A stretch of DNA of 47,131 bases from Prolixibacteraceae bacterium (GTDB lineage Bacteria; Bacteroidota; Bacteroidia; Bacteroidales; Prolixibacteraceae). The stretch covers positions 1 through 47,131 of the forward strand of contig JANXYV010000183.1 in NCBI GenBank assembly GCA_025355875.1, read 5' to 3'. Positions within the stretch are counted from its first letter, which is position 1; every line of letters begins with the position of its first letter. Positions 20,713 through 34,423 of the stretch are shown here, piece after piece. The notes below the pieces were generated by a model. It was not told the DNA's origin, did no database searches, and saw only the letters and a program-made list of their open reading frames with translations. A program made the translations under genes and the position numbers.

Positions 20713-21747
20713 TTATCTTACTGATGATTTTCGAATGACCAATTTGGTTTTCAATACTTTCTGGATGGGTTCAGCATCAGGGTTTTCGATTCGGCTAAAA
20801 AACAATCGTGCCGCTTCCTGCCCAATTTCAAAGGTTGGATGAGTGATTGAAGTTAAGGCCGGATCAACCACAGTGGAATGAAATTCATCGGTAAATCCAA
20901 CCAGCGCAACATCTTCAGGAATGCGCAGTCCACGACGTTTAATCTCTTTCATGGCTGCAAAAGCCACTGTATCGTTGATCCCGAAAATTGCATCCGGACG
21001 TATAGATAACTCAAGCAATGCGGCTGTGACTTTGGTCGCATCAAGGGTGCTCATATTGCATTTAACCAGCAATTCAGATCGAAATTCGAGTCCGCATTTT
21101 TTCAATCCGGAAAGATAACCCTGAGTTCTTTGCTGAGAAATATTCAGGTGGTCAGGGCCAGCAATGTAGGCGATCCGCTGAAATCCATTTTTGCAAAAAT
21201 GGCTGGTTATTTTTTGAGCTGCATCCACATTGTCAACCACCACCGATGGAACTTTATCAATCCGGCATACCCGGTCGAAAAAAACAAGTGGGATATGGTT
21301 GTTGATGAGCCGATCGAAATGTTCATAGGTTTTAGTTTCCTGACTCAGGCAAACTATCAGGCCTTCGACACGGGTTTTCATCAAATTTTCAACCGCCTTA
21401 ATTTCCTTTTTTAACGATTCGTTGGATGAAGCGATGAGTATGTAGTATCCTTTCTCTTCGGCAATATGCTCAATTCCTGAAATGATGGATGAATAAAAGT
21501 GAGTTACCAAATCAGGAACAATCACTCCAATCATCCGGGTCGCCTGTTTTAGCAAGCCCATGGCCAGCGGATTGGGAGAATAATTCATTTCAGCAGCCAG
21601 TTTCTGCACCTTTCGGGTCACATTTGGACTGATATCCGGATGATTATTCAGTGCCCTTGAAACCGTTGAAATTGAAACGCCAAGTTCCTGTGCCAAATCC
21701 TTTAACGAAATATGTCTTTTCCCCTTTTCCATCTTATAGCGAATCAA
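20713..21747 (-). CDS. LacI-family transcriptional regulator
   Basis: DNA-binding regulator of 344 residues that senses a sugar or sugar phosphate. The N-terminal helix-turn-helix (about 13-35: SLKDLAQELGVSISTVSRAL followed by NN) with hinge SPNPLAMGLL is followed by a periplasmic-binding-protein-like sensor domain (IGVIVPDLVTHFYSSIISGI through ALVGFTDEFHSTVVDPALTS). Translation may start at M6 (21732). It heads the lacI-DUF6786-GH116 group and diverges from the GDP-mannose epimerase gene. The intergenic region carries a palindromic operator pair repeated before the GH2 gene, so it probably controls both plus-strand blocks and perhaps itself. Confidence 0.93.
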   Translation of the reverse strand: MIRYKMEKGKRHISLKDLAQELGVSISTVSRALNNHPDISPNVTRKVQKLAAEMNYSPNPLAMGLLKQATRMIGVIVPDLVTHFYSSIISGIEHIAEEKGYYILIASSNESLKKEIKAVENLMKTRVEGLIVCLSQETKTYEHFDRLINNHIPLVFFDRVCRIDKVPSVVVDNVDAAQKITSHFCKNGFQRIAYIAGPDHLNISQQRTQGYLSGLKKCGLEFRSELLVKCNMSTLDATKVTAALLELSIRPDAIFGINDTVAFAAMKEIKRRGLRIPEDVALVGFTDEFHSTVVDPALTSITHPTFEIGQEAARLFFSRIENPDAEPIQKVLKTKLVIRKSSVR

Positions 21748-21902
21748 ACCATTTTATACACAAAGCTAACAGATTTTCATAAACAGAAGTAGTGTTCAGT
21801 GATCAGTCTCAGTATTCAGGCAGTCATCTGACGATACAAATCTATCCTTCAATCCATCAGTCCCTCAATTGCTGAATAATGTTCCTCAACATATTTCTTA
21901 TC

Positions 21903-21930
21903 ACGCAAACCTTTGCGCAAACCTTTGCAC
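21903..21930. promoter_or_regulatory. Tandem LacI-type operator, site 1
   Basis: Two overlapping near-palindromes, ACGCAAACCTTTGCGC (21903-21918) and GCGCAAACCTTTGCAC (21915-21930), are made by a 12-bp unit CGCAAACCTTTG repeated in tandem. The shape (CGCAAA, two-base centre, TTTGCG) is that of LacI/PurR-family operators. It lies 22 nt upstream of the promoter of the epimerase gene and 156 nt upstream of lacI. It is 26 of 28 identical to site 2. Confidence 0.8.
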
Positions 21931-21952
21931 TATTTTACTGAATCTGAACGTA

Positions 21953-21982
21953 TTGCATGGTAATATTTTATACTGATATTTG
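21953..21982 (+). promoter_or_regulatory. Promoter of the epimerase operon
   Basis: TTG (21953-21955), 19 nt, then GATATTTG (21975-21982), seven of eight to the TAnnTTTG box. The same arrangement recurs at 28716-28745 at the same distance from an identical operator. This predicts transcription starting near 21990 and a leader of about 100 nt. Confidence 0.6.
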
Positions 21983-22086
21983 CATCGGATATTTAAAAGT
22001 GCATTCAGCTGATCCATTTACCATCAGCAGTTTAGCAAAAATTGATCCGATATTTTGAAGATTGTTAAACATTTAAATCATAGAAG

Positions 22087-23061
22087 ATGAAAAGAATTGT
22101 AGTAGCCGGAGCCGGGGGTTTCATTGGTGGCCACCTGGCCAGAAAACTGAAAGACATGGGAAATGATGTTCGTGCGGTCGATAAAAAACCCATGAACCAA
22201 TGGTATCAGGTACATACCGACATCGATAACCTGGTGCTTGATCTGAACAGCAAAGAAAATTGCTACACGGCGTTGAACGGATACAATGAAGTGTTCAACC
22301 TGGCTGCAGATATGGGTGGAATGGGTTTCATCGAAACGCATAAGGCTGAATGTATGCTAAGCGTTTTAATCAACACGCATCTTCTGATGGCTGCCAAAGA
22401 TTTAGGAATCGACCGTTTTTTCTATGCTTCGTCCGCTTGTGTTTACAATGGCGAAAAACAACAGGAAACCGATAATCCCGGATTGAAGGAAGCTGATGCT
22501 TATCCGGCTCAGGCTGAAGATGGCTATGGATGGGAAAAACTGTTCTCAGAACGCATGTGTCGTCATTTCCGCGAAGATTATGGAATTAACACCCGTGTTG
22601 CACGTTTCCACAATGTATATGGACCGCACGGAACCTGGGATGGTGGTCGTGAAAAAGCGCCTGCAGCCATGTGTCGCAAAGTGCTGGAAGCTGAATTGTA
22701 TGGCAAAACTGAAATCAACATCTGGGGCGACGGAGAACAAACCCGCAGCTTCATGTACATTACGGAATGTGTTGAAGGTATCCTGAAAATCATGTACAGC
22801 GACATCATCGAACCGATCAACCTGGGAAGCAGCGAAATGGTATCGATCAACCAACTGGTTGACATTGTAGAGAAAATTGGCAACATTAAACTTAACCGGA
22901 CTTACGACCTGGATGCTCCCAAAGGGGTTCGCGGACGAAACAGCGACAATACCCTGATCCTGGAACTACTTGGATGGGAACCTTCTTTACCGTTGGCAAA
23001 AGGAATGAAAGAAACCTACGACTGGATCCGGACACAAATGGTAAGCGGAGGAATTAAATAG
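22087..23061 (+). CDS. GDP-mannose 3,5-epimerase
   Basis: Extended short-chain dehydrogenase of 324 residues predicted to epimerise GDP-mannose at C3 and C5 to GDP-L-galactose or GDP-L-gulose. The NAD-binding GAGGFIG is at 8-14. The functional residues of the plant enzyme are all present at a constant offset: C118, Y147/K151 and K190 correspond to Arabidopsis C145, Y174/K178 and K217. The family segments ADMGGMGFI, FFYASSACVY, RFHNVYGPHGTW, GGREKAPAA and GVRGRNSDN are intact. First gene of the plus-strand block under operator site 1. Its substrate is the product of ManC, encoded two genes on. Confidence 0.9.
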   Translation: MKRIVVAGAGGFIGGHLARKLKDMGNDVRAVDKKPMNQWYQVHTDIDNLVLDLNSKENCYTALNGYNEVFNLAADMGGMGFIETHKAECMLSVLINTHLLMAAKDLGIDRFFYASSACVYNGEKQQETDNPGLKEADAYPAQAEDGYGWEKLFSERMCRHFREDYGINTRVARFHNVYGPHGTWDGGREKAPAAMCRKVLEAELYGKTEINIWGDGEQTRSFMYITECVEGILKIMYSDIIEPINLGSSEMVSINQLVDIVEKIGNIKLNRTYDLDAPKGVRGRNSDNTLILELLGWEPSLPLAKGMKETYDWIRTQMVSGGIK

Positions 23062-23078
23062 ATTACGGCATCAGTGTC

Positions 23079-23140
23079 ATTTACCAGTAGCCAGTAACCA
23101 GTTGCTATTTGCTGGTTTTTGGTTTCTGGTTTCTGGCAGA
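23079..23140. repeat. Degenerate CCAGT/CTGGT-rich intergenic tract
   Basis: The gap between the epimerase and the fused transferase gene consists of near-repeats: AGTAGCCAGTAACCAGTTGC, then GCTGGTTTTTGGTTTCTGGT followed by TTCTGGC. The two halves are roughly inverted, so the RNA can fold. It looks like a slippage-prone or dispersed repeat. A similar CAGT-rich stretch occurs at about 21792-21826. Confidence 0.4.
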
Positions 23141-23155
23141 AAATCATCTAAACTT

Positions 23156-24292
23156 ATGAGTGATAAAAAAGTACTGGTCAGCGGATGTTATGATCTGCTT
23201 CATGCCGGGCACATTGCCTTTTTCAAAACGGCTTCTCAATACGGTAAACTCTATGTGAGTCTTGGTCAGGATGAAAACCTTTTCCGGTTGAAAGGCAAAA
23301 AGCCCTATTTCAGTCAGGAAGAACGGGTTTATATGGTCAGCGCTGTTAAATATGTGACGGATGCATTTGTATCCTCAGGAATGGGAATACTCGATTTTGA
23401 AGAAGACATGAAGCGCATCCAGCCCGACTATTTTGTGGTGAATTCCGATGGATACACCGAAGGTAAAAAGCGTCTTTGCGAGGAGAATGGGGTTGAACTG
23501 ATCGTTTTGGAACGCATTCCTGAAGAAGGATTGCCTGCCCGTTCGAGTTCTCAGTCGAAAAAAGACCTGAAATTTCCTTACCGCCTTTGTCTGGCTGGTG
23601 GATGGATGGATCAGCCATGGGTTTCGGCAGTTCACCCTGGATCGTGCGTGGTGGCGCAAATATGGCCCGATTACGATTTTAATGACCGCTCAGGAATGGC
23701 CACCAGCTCACGCAAAATTGCTGAAGAATTGTGGGGTGGAAAGTTTCCTGAAGGTGATCCGGTACGAAATGCACAATTGCTGTTCGGCGCCGAAAATCCT
23801 CCGGGATCGGAATATGTTTCCGGATCGCAGGATCAGCTTGGTATTCTGATGCCTGGAGCCAACCGACTGGATTATGACGGAAAATACTGGCCATGCCATA
23901 TCGAGTCGACCATCAATCCTGAAATCTGCGACTGGCTTTCGAATGTGTTGCATTTGATTCCTTTGGCTCCACGTCCGGAAGGATACAATCCGCTGATCGA
24001 TAAACACCTAACCCTCGAAAACGTGAAAGCACTTGGCCAGGCCGGAGATTTATGCTGGAAAGGAATCATTGAAATGAATGTTTCCAAACTCGGCGAAGGA
24101 ATGACCCAAACCTTTCAGTTCTGGAAAAAAATGTTACCTCATACTGTACCCGATTGGGTCGCCGAAGAAATGGGTACCAATTGGCTTTCCAAATATCCGG
24201 GTGCCATTCCCTCCGGTAGCGGCGGTGGATATGTAATTGTTGCCTCTGATATCCCGATTCCCGGAGCAATGAAGATCAAAATAAAACACTAA
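23156..24292 (+). CDS. Fused HxGH nucleotidyltransferase / GHMP-kinase-like protein
   Basis: Predicted bifunctional sugar-activating enzyme. I start at the ATG at 23156 (378 residues); upstream sequence is repeat-derived and would need a TTG start. Residues 5-135 are a cytidylyltransferase-fold domain with SGCYDLLHAGH (HxGH at 16-19) and a late ARSSSQ motif. Residues 140-378 carry the three GHMP-kinase motifs in the form used by fucokinase and heptose kinases: LCLAGGWMDQP (144-154), SGMATSSRK (179-187) and GSGGGY (354-359). Motifs 1 and 2 are only about 35 residues apart, far closer than in fucokinases, so the kinase half is shortened and may bind rather than phosphorylate. The design echoes FKP (kinase plus nucleotide transfer), but with an unrelated transferase fold. 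Substrate unknown. Confidence 0.75.
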   Translation: MSDKKVLVSGCYDLLHAGHIAFFKTASQYGKLYVSLGQDENLFRLKGKKPYFSQEERVYMVSAVKYVTDAFVSSGMGILDFEEDMKRIQPDYFVVNSDGYTEGKKRLCEENGVELIVLERIPEEGLPARSSSQSKKDLKFPYRLCLAGGWMDQPWVSAVHPGSCVVAQIWPDYDFNDRSGMATSSRKIAEELWGGKFPEGDPVRNAQLLFGAENPPGSEYVSGSQDQLGILMPGANRLDYDGKYWPCHIESTINPEICDWLSNVLHLIPLAPRPEGYNPLIDKHLTLENVKALGQAGDLCWKGIIEMNVSKLGEGMTQTFQFWKKMLPHTVPDWVAEEMGTNWLSKYPGAIPSGSGGGYVIVASDIPIPGAMKIKIKH

Positions 24293-24319
24293 TCGACTCA
24301 TAAACAAACTCTTAATTAA

Positions 24320-25819
24320 ATGTTTACTACATACTTAATTGATTTCATCAGAATCAAAAATCTGATGATACTGATGGTTATTTGCCTTTTTATTGCTTCC
24401 TGCAGTCAAGATCCGGTTCTTTGGAAAGTTGATTCAACCAATCAGGTCGCCAGCGAATACATCAAAAGCAAACCGGAATTTTCAGAATTTGCCAAACTGG
24501 TTGAAATGACCGGGTCAGGGCCATTACTAGGCATCAGAGGACCTTACACGATCATGGTCCCGAACAACGATGCAATGTTTGCCTACTATAAACTTAAGGG
24601 CGTTAATTATTTGACTGATTTTGACGAAAAATTTCTAAAAAACTTATTGCACAATCACATTATCACCAATGAAATTCCATCCGGGGACATGGGTTTGGGA
24701 GCACTGCGCGATACGAATGCAATTGGTGATTTCTTGGTTACTGAATTTCAGGGCTCGGATATTATCCTGAATAAATACGCAAAAATTATAGATCGTGATG
24801 TTCGTTTGGCGAATGGGTATATACATGTTATTGACCATGTTATTGATCCGGTTACAAAAGATATTTATCAGGTGGTATCGGAAGATCCTTCTTATAAAAT
24901 ATTTTCTGAAGGACTGAAAATTACCGGATTAAAAGACACTTTGCAACTCATTTCATTTCGTTATGGAAATAAGACAGCTCGTACCCGGTTTACTATTTTT
25001 GCTGTGCCTGATACGATCTATCAGCGAAAGGGAATTCAGAATGTGGACGATCTGATCAAATGGACCGGTGCAAATCCTGACAGCATTACCTATAGGAATA
25101 ATCCGTTTTACAGGTACATGGAATACCACTGCCTCAATGGAACCCACTATCTTTCCGATTTGAATACGCAGTTGTATCCGATTTTATCTCAGGACAACAA
25201 CATCTCGCTGACTGTTGATACCGACTATAAAATTAATTACATCCCAAAAACTAAAAAATACACTGCATTCATTGTTCCTGCCTCAAATGTCCCGACAAAA
25301 AACGGAGCAATTCATGCTATTAATGGGTTACTGCCAGTAATTGAACCCGATCCAAGTACAATTATTTTTGAGACCACGGATTTTTTCGATCTCAAGCAGA
25401 AAGACTGTTATGGAAAATATTACGAAAAATGGTCGGATGGCAAAAATACTTTCGCAAAGATTAAATGGGTCGGTGATTTCCTGCAATACTATATTAAGCC
25501 GAGTCCGAATAAGAATAATGATGCGCTGAATATGTTGGGTTGGTGGGAGCTTTCTGTAACTTTTCCAAAAGTGATGAAAGGAAATTATAAAATTTCTATC
25601 TATCAACCAGAGGGTTGGTTTTTATCTGATTGTGAGGTTTCCCTTGATGGAAAAAAGACAGGCTTTACTTACAAAGGACCCAATGGTGGAGGTCCTGGTG
25701 GTTTGCAGCAAGTAGCAGAAGGCCATTTTACCACCACTTCTGAACATACCCTAACACTAAGAAATTTGGATTATGGTGGTTGTTGGTGGGATTATATTAA
25801 ATTTGAACCATTAAAATAA
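24320..25819 (+). CDS. Fasciclin-domain lipoprotein, copy A
   Basis: Surface or outer-membrane lipoprotein of 499 residues, with signal sequence and lipobox-like IASC at about residue 28. It has two FAS1 (fasciclin) domains, about 40-180 (GPYTIMVPNNDAMFAYY, NGYIHVIDHVI) and about 185-335 (RTRFTIFAVPDTIYQ, NGAIHAINGLLPV), and a C-terminal beta-sandwich (about 345-499) ending WWDYIKFEPLK, as in carbohydrate-binding-like modules. FAS1 domains mediate adhesion or ligand binding. It is 27 nt after the fused transferase gene. A near-identical layout is encoded at 27098, so the two are paralogues. Such proteins commonly accompany SusC/SusD loci, though none is seen here. Confidence 0.85.
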   Translation: MFTTYLIDFIRIKNLMILMVICLFIASCSQDPVLWKVDSTNQVASEYIKSKPEFSEFAKLVEMTGSGPLLGIRGPYTIMVPNNDAMFAYYKLKGVNYLTDFDEKFLKNLLHNHIITNEIPSGDMGLGALRDTNAIGDFLVTEFQGSDIILNKYAKIIDRDVRLANGYIHVIDHVIDPVTKDIYQVVSEDPSYKIFSEGLKITGLKDTLQLISFRYGNKTARTRFTIFAVPDTIYQRKGIQNVDDLIKWTGANPDSITYRNNPFYRYMEYHCLNGTHYLSDLNTQLYPILSQDNNISLTVDTDYKINYIPKTKKYTAFIVPASNVPTKNGAIHAINGLLPVIEPDPSTIIFETTDFFDLKQKDCYGKYYEKWSDGKNTFAKIKWVGDFLQYYIKPSPNKNNDALNMLGWWELSVTFPKVMKGNYKISIYQPEGWFLSDCEVSLDGKKTGFTYKGPNGGGPGGLQQVAEGHFTTTSEHTLTLRNLDYGGCWWDYIKFEPLK

Positions 25820-25877
25820 GATTCCGGTTTTTTAGCACCTTATTTTCTTACTTTAGGGACTTCTTAAATTCAATCTT

Positions 25878-26960
25878 ATGAGCAACAACTATTGCCTGAT
25901 TATGGCTGGAGGAGCCGGAACGCGTTTCTGGCCAAAAAGCCGTATCGCAAAACCGAAACAATACCTCAGCCTGTTTGGCGATCAGTCGCTCATTCAGGAA
26001 TCGGTAAAACGGTTCGCCAATTTTATTCCTGAAGAATCAATTTATGTGGTTTCGGCAAAAAGTCAGCAGGCGGTTTTGGAATCGCAGACAGGAAACCTGC
26101 CGAAGGAAAATCTGATCTTCGAACCGGTTGGAAAAAATACACTTCCGGCAATTGGTCTGGCTGCCTTGTTTATTGCTGAAAAAGATCCGGAAGGAGTCAT
26201 GATTGTTTCTCCGTCGGATCACTTGATTCAGAATAATGAACTGTTTCAGCAGTGTATCGAATCAGCTGCCCTCATCGCTGAAAAGAAAAACGGAATTGTG
26301 ACCATCGGGATTTCCCCGAAATATCCAGCCACCGGTTACGGATACGTGCAAACTGGCGATGAAATTCAAGTTGGACAAAGCATCCGCTCTTTCTCAGTCA
26401 ATCGGTTCGTCGAAAAACCCAATGTTGAAGTGGCAATGGGGTATTTGAAACAAGGCGGATTCTTCTGGAACAGCGGCATTTTCGTTTTCAATGTTTCGGT
26501 ATTCCTGAAAGCTGTTCAGGAATTCTCTCCAGAATTGTATTCTGACCTGATGCGAATCAAGAAACACATCGGGACTGAAACCTATGAAGAAGCTGTTGAC
26601 CGGATTTACCGCGAAGTGACTTCAATCTCCATTGACTACGGAATTCTGGAAAAAGCCTCGAACGTATTTTTGGTACAGGGTGATTTCGTTTGGAACGATC
26701 TGGGAAGCTGGGAAGAAGTGTACAAGTACGATCCGAAAAAAGACGAAAATCAGAATGCGGCTTCCGGAGAAGTCATTTTGATCGACACTAAAAACTCCTA
26801 CATTTCTGCTCCAAACAGCTTAGTTGCGGTAGTAGGATTGGACGATGTCATTGTAGTTCAGGAAGGAAACACCATCCTGGTTTGCAAACGCGACCGGGCA
26901 GAAGATATTAAAGCTGTGGTTGGTGAAATCACCCGGCGAAAACTGGATCAGTATTTATAA
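25878..26960 (+). CDS. manC: Mannose-1-phosphate guanylyltransferase
   Basis: Makes GDP-mannose from mannose-1-phosphate and GTP. The nucleotidyltransferase signature MAGGAGTRFWPKSRIAKPKQ is at about residues 9-28. The conserved VSPSDHLI, FVEKPN, GYVQTGDE and FFWNSGIFVF segments follow. At 360 residues it has the pyrophosphorylase core but no C-terminal phosphomannose-isomerase domain, so it is monofunctional. It lies between the two fasciclin genes and supplies the substrate for the epimerase upstream, making a two-step route to GDP-L-galactose or GDP-L-gulose in one gene block. Confidence 0.93.
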   Translation: MSNNYCLIMAGGAGTRFWPKSRIAKPKQYLSLFGDQSLIQESVKRFANFIPEESIYVVSAKSQQAVLESQTGNLPKENLIFEPVGKNTLPAIGLAALFIAEKDPEGVMIVSPSDHLIQNNELFQQCIESAALIAEKKNGIVTIGISPKYPATGYGYVQTGDEIQVGQSIRSFSVNRFVEKPNVEVAMGYLKQGGFFWNSGIFVFNVSVFLKAVQEFSPELYSDLMRIKKHIGTETYEEAVDRIYREVTSISIDYGILEKASNVFLVQGDFVWNDLGSWEEVYKYDPKKDENQNAASGEVILIDTKNSYISAPNSLVAVVGLDDVIVVQEGNTILVCKRDRAEDIKAVVGEITRRKLDQYL

Positions 26961-27097
26961 AAACCAGTATTTATTCATTTACAATTCATGCATCTCCATT
27001 GTAAAAAGATAATTTTCAGATGCAATCTGACCAATAAATCAATCATAAAATTAATTGGAATAAACAAGTAACCAAAACTAAACCCAACCACTTCGCG

Positions 27098-28597
27098 ATG
27101 AAATATTTTGGATTTGCACGAGCACATTCCTGGCACCAATTTGTGCTATTATTCATTTTCCTTACCAGCTTTCTTTTCAATTCATGCCAGGAAGAACCTA
27201 AATTATGGGAAGTCAAATCAACCAGTCAAGTTGCCAGCGACTATATTAAAAGCAAGCCTGAATTTTCTGAGTTTGCAAAACTGATTGAAATGACGGGATT
27301 AGACCCATTATTAGGCATCCGTGGACCTTTTACCATCATTCTTCCCAACAATGATGCGATGTTTGCCTATTACAAAGAAAAAGGTGTGAATTCCTTAACT
27401 GATTTCGATGAAGCATTCCGCAGGAAATTAGCACTCAATCACCTAATAACAAACGAAATAGCAACCGGAGATATGAGCCTCGGTGCGCTTCGCGATACCA
27501 ATTCAATTGGCGATTTTCTGGTGACTGAATTTCAGGGTTCTGACATTATTCTAAACAGACATTCAAAAATCATTGAACGGGATATTCGCCTTGCCAATGG
27601 TTATGCACATGTCATCGACCGGGTTATTGAACCGATAACGAAAGATGTTTATTCCGTGGTCTCCGAGGATCCTTCGTTTAAAATATTTGCTGAAGGACTG
27701 AAGATTACAGGAATCAAAGACACCCTTCAGCAGATTTCATTTCTCTTTGGAAGTCATACTTCCCGAACCCGTTTCACCCTTCTCGCTGTCCCTGATACGA
27801 TTTATCAAAAAAACGGAATTACCAGTGTGGACGATCTGATCAAATGGACCGGGGCAAACCCGGATAGCATTACCTCCATGAATAATGCATTTTACCGGTA
27901 TATGGAATACCACTGTATGGCTGGAACCTATTTTCTTTCGGATCTGAACTCGCAATTGTACCCTATCCTATCGCATGACAATAACATCTTGATGACCATC
28001 GATACGGACTATAAAATCAATTACCTGCCGAAAACAAAAAAATACACAGCGTTTATAGTTCCGGCTTCAAATACTCCGGCTAAAAATGGTGCACTTCATG
28101 CCATCAACGGTTTATTGCCGGTTTTTGAGCCTGCCCCTCAATCAGTAATATTTGAAACTACTGATTTCCAGGATATCAAGCAGGGAGATTGGTTTGGAAA
28201 GTATTATATGAAATGGAATGATGGGAAAAATGATCTTGCAAAGATTAAGTTTGATGGTGACTTTCTAGGATATTATTATAAAACTCACGATTGTCCGGTC
28301 GCTATTGGTCGCGATGCATTATTTATGCTTGGGTTTTGGTGGATTGAAATAACATTTCCTAAGGTAATCAAAGGCAAATATAAAATCATATATGGATCTG
28401 AATGGGGTGGAACTGCAAGTTTTATTGTCTATGTCGACGGCAAAATTACAGGCTATGCGTATGACGGTCCTAAAGGAGGTAATCAGACCATTGCAGATGT
28501 TGACTTTGCCACAACATCCGAGCATAGAATTAAGATTGTGCCAACTATCTATGGCGCACTTTACTGGGACTATGTCGAATTTGTTCCAGTGGAATAG
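27098..28597 (+). CDS. Fasciclin-domain lipoprotein, copy B
   Basis: Paralogue of the 24320 gene with the same length (499 residues) and order: lipobox-like FNSC (about residue 31), two FAS1 domains and a C-terminal beta-sandwich. Long stretches are nearly identical (VASDYIKSKPEFSEFAKLIE, DDLIKWTGANPDSIT, TDYKINYLPKTKKYTAFIV) while the signal peptide and last 150 residues differ most, suggesting duplication followed by change in the ligand-facing module. manC lies between the copies, so this is not a simple tandem pair. The 137-nt gap before it shows no operator. The gene ends just before operator site 2. Confidence 0.85.
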   Translation: MKYFGFARAHSWHQFVLLFIFLTSFLFNSCQEEPKLWEVKSTSQVASDYIKSKPEFSEFAKLIEMTGLDPLLGIRGPFTIILPNNDAMFAYYKEKGVNSLTDFDEAFRRKLALNHLITNEIATGDMSLGALRDTNSIGDFLVTEFQGSDIILNRHSKIIERDIRLANGYAHVIDRVIEPITKDVYSVVSEDPSFKIFAEGLKITGIKDTLQQISFLFGSHTSRTRFTLLAVPDTIYQKNGITSVDDLIKWTGANPDSITSMNNAFYRYMEYHCMAGTYFLSDLNSQLYPILSHDNNILMTIDTDYKINYLPKTKKYTAFIVPASNTPAKNGALHAINGLLPVFEPAPQSVIFETTDFQDIKQGDWFGKYYMKWNDGKNDLAKIKFDGDFLGYYYKTHDCPVAIGRDALFMLGFWWIEITFPKVIKGKYKIIYGSEWGGTASFIVYVDGKITGYAYDGPKGGNQTIADVDFATTSEHRIKIVPTIYGALYWDYVEFVPVE

Positions 28598-28664
28598 ACG
28601 CTGAATTTCTTCTTTGAAGTTCCAATTTTGCGCCTGGAGAAGATGTTCCTAAACATTTTTTTCA

Positions 28665-28694
28665 GGCGCAAACCTTTGCGCAAACCTTTGCGCC
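28665..28694. promoter_or_regulatory. Tandem LacI-type operator, site 2
   Basis: Two overlapping palindromes, GGCGCAAACCTTTGCGC (28665-28681) and GCGCAAACCTTTGCGCC (28678-28694), share the 12-bp unit of site 1 with cleaner ends. It is 22 nt upstream of the GH2 promoter, the same distance as at site 1, while the sequence between is only partly conserved. Confidence 0.82.
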
Positions 28695-28715
28695 AATCTG
28701 CTGATTTGTAAAGCG

Positions 28716-28745
28716 TTGAATTCAGTCATTTTATTCTGATATTTA
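28716..28745 (+). promoter_or_regulatory. Promoter of the GH2 and glycoside hydrolase run
   Basis: TTG (28716-28718), 19 nt, then GATATTTA (28738-28745), embedded in a TTTTATTCTGATATTT block that differs by one base from the block before the epimerase gene. This predicts transcription from about 28752. Confidence 0.6.
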
Positions 28746-28766: not shown

Positions 28767-31997
<3,231 letters not shown>

Positions 31998-32020: not shown

Positions 32021-34423
32021 ATGAAGAATCTATTTAAAATCGCAGTCATTTTAAGTTCATTTGCATTTCTGAATGCCTGCCAAAGTAAGCCTCAACCAAC
32101 AGCCAAGTTTGAACCAACTTTCAAGTCGCTTGAACAGGTCAACCCTGTTCCGGAATGGTTTAAAGATGCCAAGTTCGGAATCTATTTTCACTGGGGCGTT
32201 TATTCCGTTCCTGCCTGGGGCAACGAATGGTACCCGCGTAACATGTATTTCGCGGGTTCGCCTGAAAACAAGCACCAGATTGAAACTTTCGGCGAGTTAA
32301 AAGATTTTCCCTACGACAAGTTTATCAGCGGAACGACTGATAAAAAAGGAAATATCTATCAGTTTGCACCAAAACTGAAGACCGAAGGCGGACAATTCGA
32401 CCCGGCTGAATGGGCACAGCTTTTTGCCGATGCCGGAGCTAAATTTGCAGGTCCGGTAGCCGAGCACCACGACGGATTTTCGATGTGGGCGAGCAAGGTC
32501 AATCCCTGGAATGCCAAAGCCATGGGACCAAAACTTGACCTGGTCAAATTGCTGACCGATGAAATCAGGAAGAAGAACATGAAGGTGATTCTTTCGATGC
32601 ACCATGCCTTTAACATTACCGGCTTCTACGAAAAAGTGCCTGCCACCACCGATCCAAAATTCCAAATGCTATACGGACAGCAGGGAAAAGAAAAGAACGA
32701 GGCCTTTTGGCTGGCCAAACACAAAGAGATCATCGACGATTATCAACCGGATATCATCTGGCAGGATTTTAATTTGAATGCCATTTCGGAACCGGTCTTG
32801 CTGCAATTCCTGGCCTATTACTACAACCGGGCTGCTGAATGGAACAAGGAAGTGGTAGCTACCTACAAAGATGCACTGAATAAAAAATGTGCCGTTCTCG
32901 ATTTCGAACGTGGCGGTCCGACCAACCTGACCGAAAACTACTGGCTGACCGACGATGCGATCAGTTCGTCGAGTTGGTGCTATACCGAAGGAATTGGATA
33001 CTATTCCAAAAAGCAAATCCTACATGGCTTTTTCGACCGCGTGAGCAAAAACGGGAACCTGTTGCTGAATATTTCGCCAAAAGCTGACGGAACCATTCCG
33101 CAGGAGCAGCGCGATGTTTTGCTGGCCATGGGCGATTGGCTGAAGAAATATGGCGAAGCCATTTATTCTACCCGTGCCTGGGAAAAGTATGGTGAAGGTC
33201 CGACCAAAATGGGAGCTGCCCATGGCGTATTTGAGAATCCAAAAGAAGGTACTGCTCAAGATATCCGTTATACCCGTTCGAAAGACAATACCACGTTATA
33301 TGCAATTTTGCTGGGTTGGGAACAGGGTCAGAAAGAGGTCAAACTGACTGCACTGTCATCAGATCGGATTAACCTGAAAAACCTGAAAGAAGTGTCTTTA
33401 CTGAACGGAGCAGCTGGACAATATCTGCCTTTGACTTTCAAACAGGATGCCTCAGGTTTAACCATTAACTTGCCTGAAAAATCGTTCGACGAGCTGGCCT
33501 ATGCCCTGAAATTAAGTTTCGAGGGAACGATTCCAGCATTGAATAAGTATGTCGATTTGAATTGTTCGCCCTACTATTACCTGACTCCGGGTCAAAAATC
33601 GGGTGTTGTTTTTGGCGCAGATGGTACCTTGTCTGACGACCGGAAAAATCCGGCTCAGCAATGGAAATTTGAAAAAGCAGCTGCCGGAATCTACAAAATC
33701 ATCAGCCGGACCAATACGCAAACTATGCTCGAATCAGAAGGAAAAACGTTTAAAGTTGCGCCTTCAACCGGAAAAGAAAATCAGCAATGGAAAGTGGAAG
33801 AGACTTTTGAAGGCTTACTGAAAATTTCGTGCGTTCAGTTTCCCAATGTTTTCCTGACTGTTGAAGGTGAAATCGTCAAAGGCGCAAAAGCCACGGGCAC
33901 CGAAATCGGACTGAATACTTCGTTTGGGTGGTCACTCCATGAAGTATGCGAAATGAAACAAACAGCCTATAAAACTCTGGTAATTCCCGGCACCATTGAA
34001 GTGGAAGATTTTGATCTGGGTTGCCCCGATGATACTTATTTCGATAAAGATGAAGCCAACGCAGGTGGCAAATACCGCACCGATACCGGAGTTGACATCG
34101 AAGCATGTTCCGCCGGCGGGTTCAATACCGGCTGGGCAGGTTCCGGAGAATGGACAGCATACACCGTAGATGTGAAGAAAAGCGGTAAATACAAAGTTTC
34201 GGTCATGGTAGGTACGACCTCCGATTCAGGAAAATTGCATCTTGAATTCAATGGCGAAAACAAGACCGGAATTTTACCGGTATTGAATACTGGTGGCTAT
34301 CAGAACTGGAAACCGGTAACAACATCAGTTGAGCTAACTGCTGGCAAGCAAATCATGAAAATCTACCTCGATGAAGCCAATTCAGGCTTGAATATGGATA
34401 AAGTAATTTTTACTGCTGAGTAA
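32021..34423 (+). CDS. GH29 alpha-L-fucosidase lipoprotein with ricin-like and CBM6-like modules
   Basis: Removes terminal alpha-L-fucose (retaining), 800 residues. Lipobox LNAC places the lipidated Cys at residue 20. The GH29 barrel begins WFKDAKFGIYFHWGVYSVPA (46-65), includes AEHHDGFSMW (147-156), and has the nucleophile D249 in IIWQDF, where relatives often read WFDG. A C-terminal barrel-associated beta domain is followed by a ricin-type trefoil (about 515-640, repeated QQWKxE) and a CBM6-like domain (about 655-800, beginning IEVEDFDLG), both likely to hold the enzyme on polysaccharide. Second gene of the GH2-led run; 90 nt precede the GH10 gene. Confidence 0.9.
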   Translation: MKNLFKIAVILSSFAFLNACQSKPQPTAKFEPTFKSLEQVNPVPEWFKDAKFGIYFHWGVYSVPAWGNEWYPRNMYFAGSPENKHQIETFGELKDFPYDKFISGTTDKKGNIYQFAPKLKTEGGQFDPAEWAQLFADAGAKFAGPVAEHHDGFSMWASKVNPWNAKAMGPKLDLVKLLTDEIRKKNMKVILSMHHAFNITGFYEKVPATTDPKFQMLYGQQGKEKNEAFWLAKHKEIIDDYQPDIIWQDFNLNAISEPVLLQFLAYYYNRAAEWNKEVVATYKDALNKKCAVLDFERGGPTNLTENYWLTDDAISSSSWCYTEGIGYYSKKQILHGFFDRVSKNGNLLLNISPKADGTIPQEQRDVLLAMGDWLKKYGEAIYSTRAWEKYGEGPTKMGAAHGVFENPKEGTAQDIRYTRSKDNTTLYAILLGWEQGQKEVKLTALSSDRINLKNLKEVSLLNGAAGQYLPLTFKQDASGLTINLPEKSFDELAYALKLSFEGTIPALNKYVDLNCSPYYYLTPGQKSGVVFGADGTLSDDRKNPAQQWKFEKAAAGIYKIISRTNTQTMLESEGKTFKVAPSTGKENQQWKVEETFEGLLKISCVQFPNVFLTVEGEIVKGAKATGTEIGLNTSFGWSLHEVCEMKQTAYKTLVIPGTIEVEDFDLGCPDDTYFDKDEANAGGKYRTDTGVDIEACSAGGFNTGWAGSGEWTAYTVDVKKSGKYKVSVMVGTTSDSGKLHLEFNGENKTGILPVLNTGGYQNWKPVTTSVELTAGKQIMKIYLDEANSGLNMDKVIFTAE

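Follow-up and report, generated by a model that had tools for sequence, protein, structure and literature searches.

A CRP-like site, LacI-family operator units and a promoter in fixed geometry: a candidate L-fucose-type regulon in Prolixibacteraceae

The locus and its promoters

The window considered here is the whole 47,131-nucleotide stretch of contig JANXYV010000183.1 from a Prolixibacteraceae bacterium (assembly GCA_025355875.1), in which two operons are preceded by closely similar promoter regions, the first of them lying beside a divergent gene for a LacI/GalR-family regulator (Table 1). Upstream of operon 1, site 1 (21903-21930) reads AC, two consecutive copies of the 12-mer GCAAACCTTTGC and AC; upstream of operon 2, site 2 (28666-28693) reads GC, the same two copies and GC. 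Direct reading bears out the original prediction that these operator pairs agree at 26 of 28 bases, that TTG-N19-GATATTT starts 22 nt past each pair, that 156 nt separate the LacI gene (21747) from site 1 (21903), and that each site holds two overlapping palindromes, the 12-bp period being strict. In other words, the tandem (21905-21928 and 28668-28691) is equidistant from the promoter at both sites. The unit has the structure GCAAA-CC-TTTGC, with CC instead of the usual CG at its centre. Besides, a further palindromic element overlooked at first, TGTTNNNNAACA, is found 12-13 nt ahead of unit 1, at 21880-21891 and 28644-28655.

Altogether, these elements would compose a regulatory module in three parts, namely a CRP-like activator site of the Cur/BT4338 type (TGTTNNNNAACA), one or two LacI-family operator units (GCAAAnnTTTGC) starting 12-13 nt downstream of it, and a Bacteroidota promoter whose -7 element would start about 46-47 nt past the promoter-proximal unit. 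The -7 consensus in Bacteroidota is TAnnTTTG. For site 2, the automatic promoter search chose a different and weaker start, and the promoter listed is the one read by eye. Regarding the LacI gene, a start at the ATG at 21732 is likelier than at the TTG at 21747, judging from the place of the first methionine.

Table 1. Coordinates of the genes and putative regulatory elements in the window
Feature	Position	Strand	Basis
LacI/GalR-family regulator gene	20713..21747	-	PF00356 HTH 53.5 bits, PF00532 135.2 bits
Putative lacI -7 element TAGATTTG	21837..21844	-	TTG 21 nt upstream (21866-21868); eye reading against consensus
Putative CRP-like (BT4338/Cur-type) site ATGTTCCTCAACAT, site 1	21879..21892	none	consensus in available parts of PMC3878776, PMC6989115
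Putative LacI operator unit 1, site 1	21905..21916	none	motif search and alignment
Putative LacI operator unit 2, site 1	21917..21928	none	motif search and alignment
Promoter TTG-N19-GATATTTG, site 1	21953..21982	+	TTG 21953-21955, GATATTTG 21975-21982; reading and promoter search
NAD-dependent sugar epimerase, first gene of operon 1	22087..23061	+	PF01370 141 bits
Cytidylyltransferase-like protein	23102..24292	+	PF01467 52.8 bits
ManC-like sugar-1-phosphate guanylyltransferase	25878..26960	+	PF00483, PF22640 above cut-off; TIGR01479 315 bits, cut-off 373
Putative CRP-like (BT4338/Cur-type) site ATGTTCCTAAACAT, site 2	28643..28656	none	motif searches
Putative LacI operator unit 1, site 2	28668..28679	none	motif search
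Putative LacI operator unit 2, site 2	28680..28691	none	motif search
Promoter TTG-N19-GATATTTA, site 2	28716..28745	+	TTG 28716-28718, GATATTTA 28738-28745; by eye
GH2 beta-galactosidase, first gene of operon 2	28770..31997	+	PF02836, PF02929; NF052611 1009 bits, cut-off 999
GH29 alpha-L-fucosidase with CBM6	32021..34423	+	PF01120 319.4 bits, PF03422

Occurrence and conservation of the module

In the 5,180,306-base genome, the exact 24-mer formed by the tandem occurs twice, each time with the promoter element at equal distance. Allowing up to three mismatches adds one place (3 mismatches, contig C23), the reversed control giving 0 in this genome. The remarkable feature is the tandem and not the lone 12-mer, which is unremarkable in the window at two mismatches (11 seen vs. 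6.8 expected). A mismatch-tolerant search for the composite of TGTTNNNNAACA and a unit returned four places at 0-1 mismatch, namely both window sites, C23:24452-24488 (-) and C53:34543-34579 (+); the other places listed have 2-3 mismatches, and there the reversed control is about equally frequent at a 12-nt gap and rarer at 13. All four composites have a TTG-N19/20-nAnnTTT promoter 46-47 nt past the promoter-proximal unit (site 2 by eye). The C53 composite stands ahead of a fucP-like transporter gene that is truncated at the edge of the sequence analysed and scores 202 bits with TIGR00885 (cut-off 280), and that of C23 ahead of a 132-aa protein without NCBIfam match and a gene judged by eye as SGNH hydrolase-like. 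A regulon is supported, but not as a local one as first proposed, since the fucP-like gene and the C23 locus share the module.

The LacI protein matches PF00356, PF00532 and PF13377 above cut-off, hence its assignment to the LacI/GalR family; its top NCBIfam model is CytR, with 231.7 bits below the cut-off of 436, and it is not assigned to CytR. At an identity of at least 56%, a cut-off chosen by us from the printed identity list, 79 orthologues (two of them partial) were counted among 140 genomes of the family. Named relatives belong to Prolixibacteraceae genomes, Sunxiuqinia, Maribellus and Tangfeifania, more distant ones to Hymenobacter, Cesiribacter, Bacteroides, Parabacteroides and Phocaeicola, and the recognition helix SxSTVSRAL is alike in every group compared. 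A second LacI paralogue of 39% identity is encoded in the own genome (G000:C167:20552-21553), and paralogues of about 40% are present in many genomes of the family.

Conservation was followed over 650 bp upstream of lacI in 79 regions, i.e. 78 fetched orthologue loci with upstream DNA plus the window, a tandem being counted at a match of at least 21/24. The tandem was found in 53/79 and a single unit in 16/79, neither being found in 10/79; an even palindrome linked to the LacI gene, as expected of a LacI operator, is therefore present in 69/79. Across the 140 genomes, a tandem (one mismatch, free centres) occurs in 55, and the reversed pattern in one; when spacers of 0-30 nt were allowed between exact units, the spacer was 0 at 20/20 places. 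In the footprint alignment, TGTTNNNNAACA and then a T run precede unit 1. TGTTNNNNAACA is in place in 52/53 tandem and 15/15 single-unit regions, i.e. 67 of the 68 measurable lacI-adjacent regions, which were selected independently of its pattern. Over the family it is seen in 105 of 107 regions, 39 of which were chosen by the composite pattern and contain the CRP-like site by selection; 12 nt (33 regions), 13 nt (71) or 14 nt (1) separate it from unit 1. These 39 come from 40 fetched loci not beside an orthologue (L212 overlaps L211), with G116:C347, G084:C355, G115:C204 and G125:C24 left out.

The pattern TGTTNNNNAACA-N{0,30}-unit is found in 71/140 genomes, with one match for the reversed control; gaps of 18, 23 and 30 nt are also listed. 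Composite and LacI orthologue occur together in 67 of the 140 genomes, the composite alone in 4, the orthologue alone in 12 and neither in 57, and this co-occurrence makes the neighbouring LacI protein, as originally proposed, the best candidate for the regulator. Outside the family, a single unit flanked by AC...GT precedes the Bacteroides, Parabacteroides and Phocaeicola orthologues. On a tree of 96 LacI proteins, seven changes in unit number and four in the CRP-like site were counted.

The CRP-like element

The core of TGTTNNNNAACA is that of the consensus of BT4338 (Cur), a Crp-like regulator of Bacteroides for which wwwTATGTTnTAnAACATAwww was predicted, first upstream of arabinose, xylose and fucose operons having a local regulator (PMC3878776, available parts); removing the 22-bp site at fusA2 prevented BT4338 binding (PMC6989115, available parts). 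Scored against TATGTTnTAnAACATA, the core TGTT-N4-AACA is matched at 7 or 8 of 8 positions in 67/68 lacI-adjacent regions. In both systems, an ATGTT-N4-AACAT palindrome precedes operons that have a local sugar regulator; here, unlike in Bacteroides, the partner site is of LacI type and stands at a fixed gap of 12-13 nt.

The genome contains eight matches to the cNMP-binding domain. The CRP-like gene on contig C53 (L192), a possible BT4338 orthologue, is the reciprocal best match, among the proteins compared, of one protein each in Bacteroides luti and B. ihuae (53-54%) and Parabacteroides gordonii (59%). Its distance to the fucP-like gene with the composite (L345) is about 4.4 kb. In Hymenobacter norwichensis, 13 cNMP-domain matches were recorded, and comparison of the C53 protein with 7 of them gave one match, at 31%. 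Autoregulation of the CRP-like genes was considered and found weak, the best candidate site, 28 nt ahead of L192, matching at 9 of 10 positions.

Promoter geometry and phasing

The best -7 element starts 44-47 nt past the operator in 65 of 93 regions, against 6/93 in shuffles (one per region, preserving base counts only); the 93 include four single-unit regions of distant, Bacteroides-type relatives, none of which is among the 65. Measured from the promoter-proximal unit of tandems, the distance is 46-47 nt in 35/53 lacI-adjacent and 18/27 other promoters, and for single-unit promoters 47-48 nt in 18/27, with 37 nt in five more that form one genus-level group. Outside the family, it is 44-46 nt in 6/7 Hymenobacter loci and 45-46 nt in 6/8 Bacteroides, Parabacteroides and Phocaeicola loci. 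Within it, 79/107 promoters have a -7 element at the expected places. From the centre of the CRP-like site to the -7 element, promoters with two units measure 87-91 bp (54 promoters) and those with one unit 76-79 bp (19) or 68 bp (5); these distances step by one helical turn. Taking the -7 element to lie at about -12 to -5, the proximal LacI unit would fall at about -64 and the centre of the CRP-like site at about -80, -90 or -101. The -7 element begins with T in 7 of the 78 promoters that have the CRP-like site, compared with 13 of the 15 that lack it. The P-values printed for the promoter, co-occurrence and half-site counts ignore relatedness.

Originally, the operator position had been regarded as odd for simple repression and more in keeping with activation or looping. 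The position does matter, being conserved upstream of -33 and in phase with the promoter; looping is without support, since single-unit promoters have the same layout, and the CRP-like site is a likelier source of activation than LacI, whose own effect may be of either sign.

Overlapping operator units

Within a tandem, the half-sites TTTGCG and CGCAAA have two bases in common. Of 94 sites counted, 90 are tandems once the four single sites of Bacteroides-type relatives are set aside; among these 90, 56 have a broken inner half-site and 17 a broken outer half-site, and 84 retain one perfect unit. Both inner half-sites are broken in 2/90, against 8.4 expected if independent and with relatedness ignored; both outer ones are broken in 0/90, which has little weight with less than one expected by chance. 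On the tree of 96 proteins, 9 changes are inferred in the outer-arm columns and 34 in the inner-arm columns. The central CG is seen in 0 of the 180 units of these tandems, the centres being CC, GC, GG or AC, and is present in two Parabacteroides single sites. The available parts of the LacI survey PMC4052901 report a central CG for 1173 of 1303 LacI regulators, and describe, before 110 operons, sites that overlap at a spacing of about 13 bp and are difficult to square with structures. A possible third 12-bp unit of weaker match was noticed at three loci (L234, L090, L139), among six loose candidates overall, and three Hymenobacter loci (L264, L260, L276) have a tandem mirrored about its junction with symmetric flanks, the window having a direct repeat.

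Proposed mechanism and alternatives

From the elements, their spacing, phasing and conservation, and the neighbouring genes, all read from the sequence, we infer binding by the LacI and CRP-like proteins, the sign of regulation and the ligand. At a probability slightly above even (about 0.55), the layout is a fixed-geometry module of CRP-like activator site, LacI operator and promoter serving an L-fucose-type regulon, in which class-I activation would be blocked by LacI. The CRP-like protein, bound whole helical turns away from a weak promoter, would activate it from a class-I position. In the absence of inducer, LacI would occupy the DNA between activator and RNA polymerase and block their contact (anti-activation), and a sugar ligand would release it. 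In class-I activation, the alpha domain of the polymerase docks where LacI would lie. At promoters with two units, either one dimer would bind in one register at a time, or two dimers would share the inner contacts.

Several observations weigh against this reading. Ten of the 79 orthologues are without an upstream unit, although five of these ten have less than 600 bp of upstream sequence, and 28 of the 107 family promoters are without a -7 element at the expected places. The element also departs from the Bacteroides Cur sites in that only 38/105 sites, and 0/17 lacI-adjacent sites of the own genus (window included), have TA at the centre as the BT4338 consensus does, and in that the motif is not enriched genome-wide: ATGTTNNNNAACAT occurs 13 times vs. 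11 for the control in the own genome, and across 60 genomes of the family TATGTTNNNNAACATA is found at 73 places and its reversed control at 69, so no global Cur regulon with this motif, the broader possibility tested, is seen in these genomes. The difference in the first base of the -7 element follows lineages and may reflect one or a few events. Finally, the Hymenobacter and Bacteroides-type relatives keep the distance between LacI unit and promoter without the CRP-like site, which anti-activation alone is unable to explain.

This last point favours an alternative in which LacI itself is an activator or contact-dependent dual regulator, placed class-I-like upstream of -33 and assisted by the CRP-like protein. 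The 37-nt spacing of five single-unit promoters, one helical turn less, would also suit it, as would the precedent of the LacI-family protein CcpA, which activates from cre boxes upstream of -35 in a helix-face-dependent manner (PMC3463425, available parts). It is nevertheless held to be unlikely, though worth serious attention, because promoters without the CRP-like site mostly have the consensus TAnnTTTG, as if activator-independent, the weak -7 element accompanying the CRP-like site and not LacI. Simple steric repression by LacI, with the upstream TGTTNNNNAACA serving another purpose such as the divergent lacI promoter, could account for the place of TGTTNNNNAACA between operator and lacI start in divergent regions, and autoregulation is common in the LacI family (72%; PMC4052901, available parts). 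However, the operator overlaps neither -33 nor -7, and TGTTNNNNAACA recurs at equal spacing at site 2, C23 and C53, none of which is beside this lacI gene, as well as at 39 inspected places in relatives not recorded beside a LacI orthologue (chosen by pattern, and several so near contig ends that lacI was possibly cut off), so that this explanation appears quite improbable. As for a non-regulatory intergenic repeat happening to precede genes, nothing favours it besides the repeat itself, and it is hardly credible in view of two exact genome copies and of a promoter spacing and LacI-gene linkage that are constant across genera.

Regarding the tandem itself, the 24-mer might represent a single canonical LacI operator with the CG of the junction at its centre (TTTGCGCAAA) instead of two units, considering that C12 and G13 are well conserved, that CG is the usual centre of LacI operators (PMC4052901, available parts) and that Hymenobacter L264 and others are mirror-symmetric about the junction. 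Yet single-unit promoters contain the unit only, and conservation is strongest in the outer half-sites (9 vs. 34 changes), the very ones on which a dimer at the junction would depend least, on which grounds this reading was rejected as the main one and is deemed very improbable; the conserved CG is accounted for by TTTGCG and CGCAAA half-sites sharing it. A bolder version of the two-unit reading is that the tandem is a true two-dimer operator, in which outer half-sites would anchor two dimers and inner ones would be shared, a mode disallowed by known LacI structures; the number of units would then vary together with the helical position of the CRP-like activator, in such a way that LacI always occupies the DNA from activator to polymerase. 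The counts of broken half-sites (inner in 56, outer in 17, both inner in 2) and the 84 sites with one perfect unit fit such an arrangement, which stays speculative and is considered rather doubtful.

Relation to known systems

This is not a new class of regulatory site, since both ingredients, overlapping LacI operators and CytR-CRP complexes, are known. What is new is the strict composite, together with a natural series of unit numbers, and the finding is larger than first thought. No title or abstract opening describing a CRP-LacI module was found in the literature searched, mostly without subscription journals. As with GntR at gntKU (PMC4052901, available parts), two palindromes with overlapping contact zones are conserved in an orthologous group; in contrast, the period here is a constant 12 bp instead of about 13, i.e. 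the same kind of overlap with one base less, the unit centre is never CG in the tandems, and the operator accompanies a CRP-like site that keeps helical phase with the promoter. A LacI-family protein beside CRP sites is likewise found in the CytR-CRP complexes of Enterobacteriales and Vibrionales (PMC3454398, available parts), but with two flanking CRP sites and variable half-site spacing, whereas the 53-region alignment shows one conserved TGTTNNNNAACA upstream of the units, fixed half-site spacing and a strong operator consensus. The two Parabacteroides loci with GCAAACGTTTGC resemble the PurR-type operator ACGCAAACGTTTGCGT, whose half-sites GCAAA and TTTGC are likewise two bases apart; compared with it, the centre is altered and the unit doubled in the present family.

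Beyond proposing a composite CRP-LacI promoter grammar for sugar regulons of Bacteroidota, these results bear on the puzzle left by the 2014 LacI regulon survey, in which overlapping operators would bring dimers so close that they are difficult to fit to structures (PMC4052901, available parts). One orthologous group here offers a natural series of one, two and perhaps three units, their spacing to an activator-type site and to the promoter being fixed, which opens the puzzle to footprinting and promoter swaps.

Putative target genes and candidate ligand

The assignment to an L-fucose-type regulon is suggested by the neighbouring genes in relatives, namely FucP, fuconolactonase-like, aldo/keto reductase, GH29 and epimerase-ManC genes. 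In 19/79 lacI-adjacent regions (our count), the divergent genes start with the epimerase, and an orthologue of the window's epimerase is the first gene at 9 of the 39 composite places not directly beside lacI, some being 2-5 kb away; the best NCBIfam model for the window's protein is GDP-L-fucose synthase, at 123.5 bits far below the cut-off of 500. The GH2-GH29 pair recurs, at 83% and 88% identity, at one of the 39. In other genomes, lacI is divergent from a mutarotase, an aldo/keto reductase, a fuconolactonase-like amidohydrolase and a dehydrogenase, or from FucP, with GH29 nearby. It faces both an aldo/keto reductase and FucP in the Parabacteroides locus and the Hymenobacter locus that were scanned, the former also having a weakly fuconolactonase-like protein. 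The first gene is of another kind in a few lacI-adjacent regions, e.g. SusC/SusD-like or GH97. Our best guess for the ligand is L-fucose or a near relative such as L-galactose, and the analysis suggests a fucose-type function for a LacI regulator with relatives in Bacteroides, Parabacteroides and Hymenobacter.

Relatives of the ManC-like protein, 83-84% identical to that of the window, lie in clusters starting with a 394-aa gene (L081, L209, L210), and the single such cluster-start gene scanned (L075) is FucP; this arrangement hints at a GDP-sugar step in the use of fucose or L-galactose. In the window, the ManC-like gene is flanked by two fasciclin-domain proteins, both of 499 aa (24320-25819 and 27098-28597), the first of which has a relative of 68% identity in locus L138.

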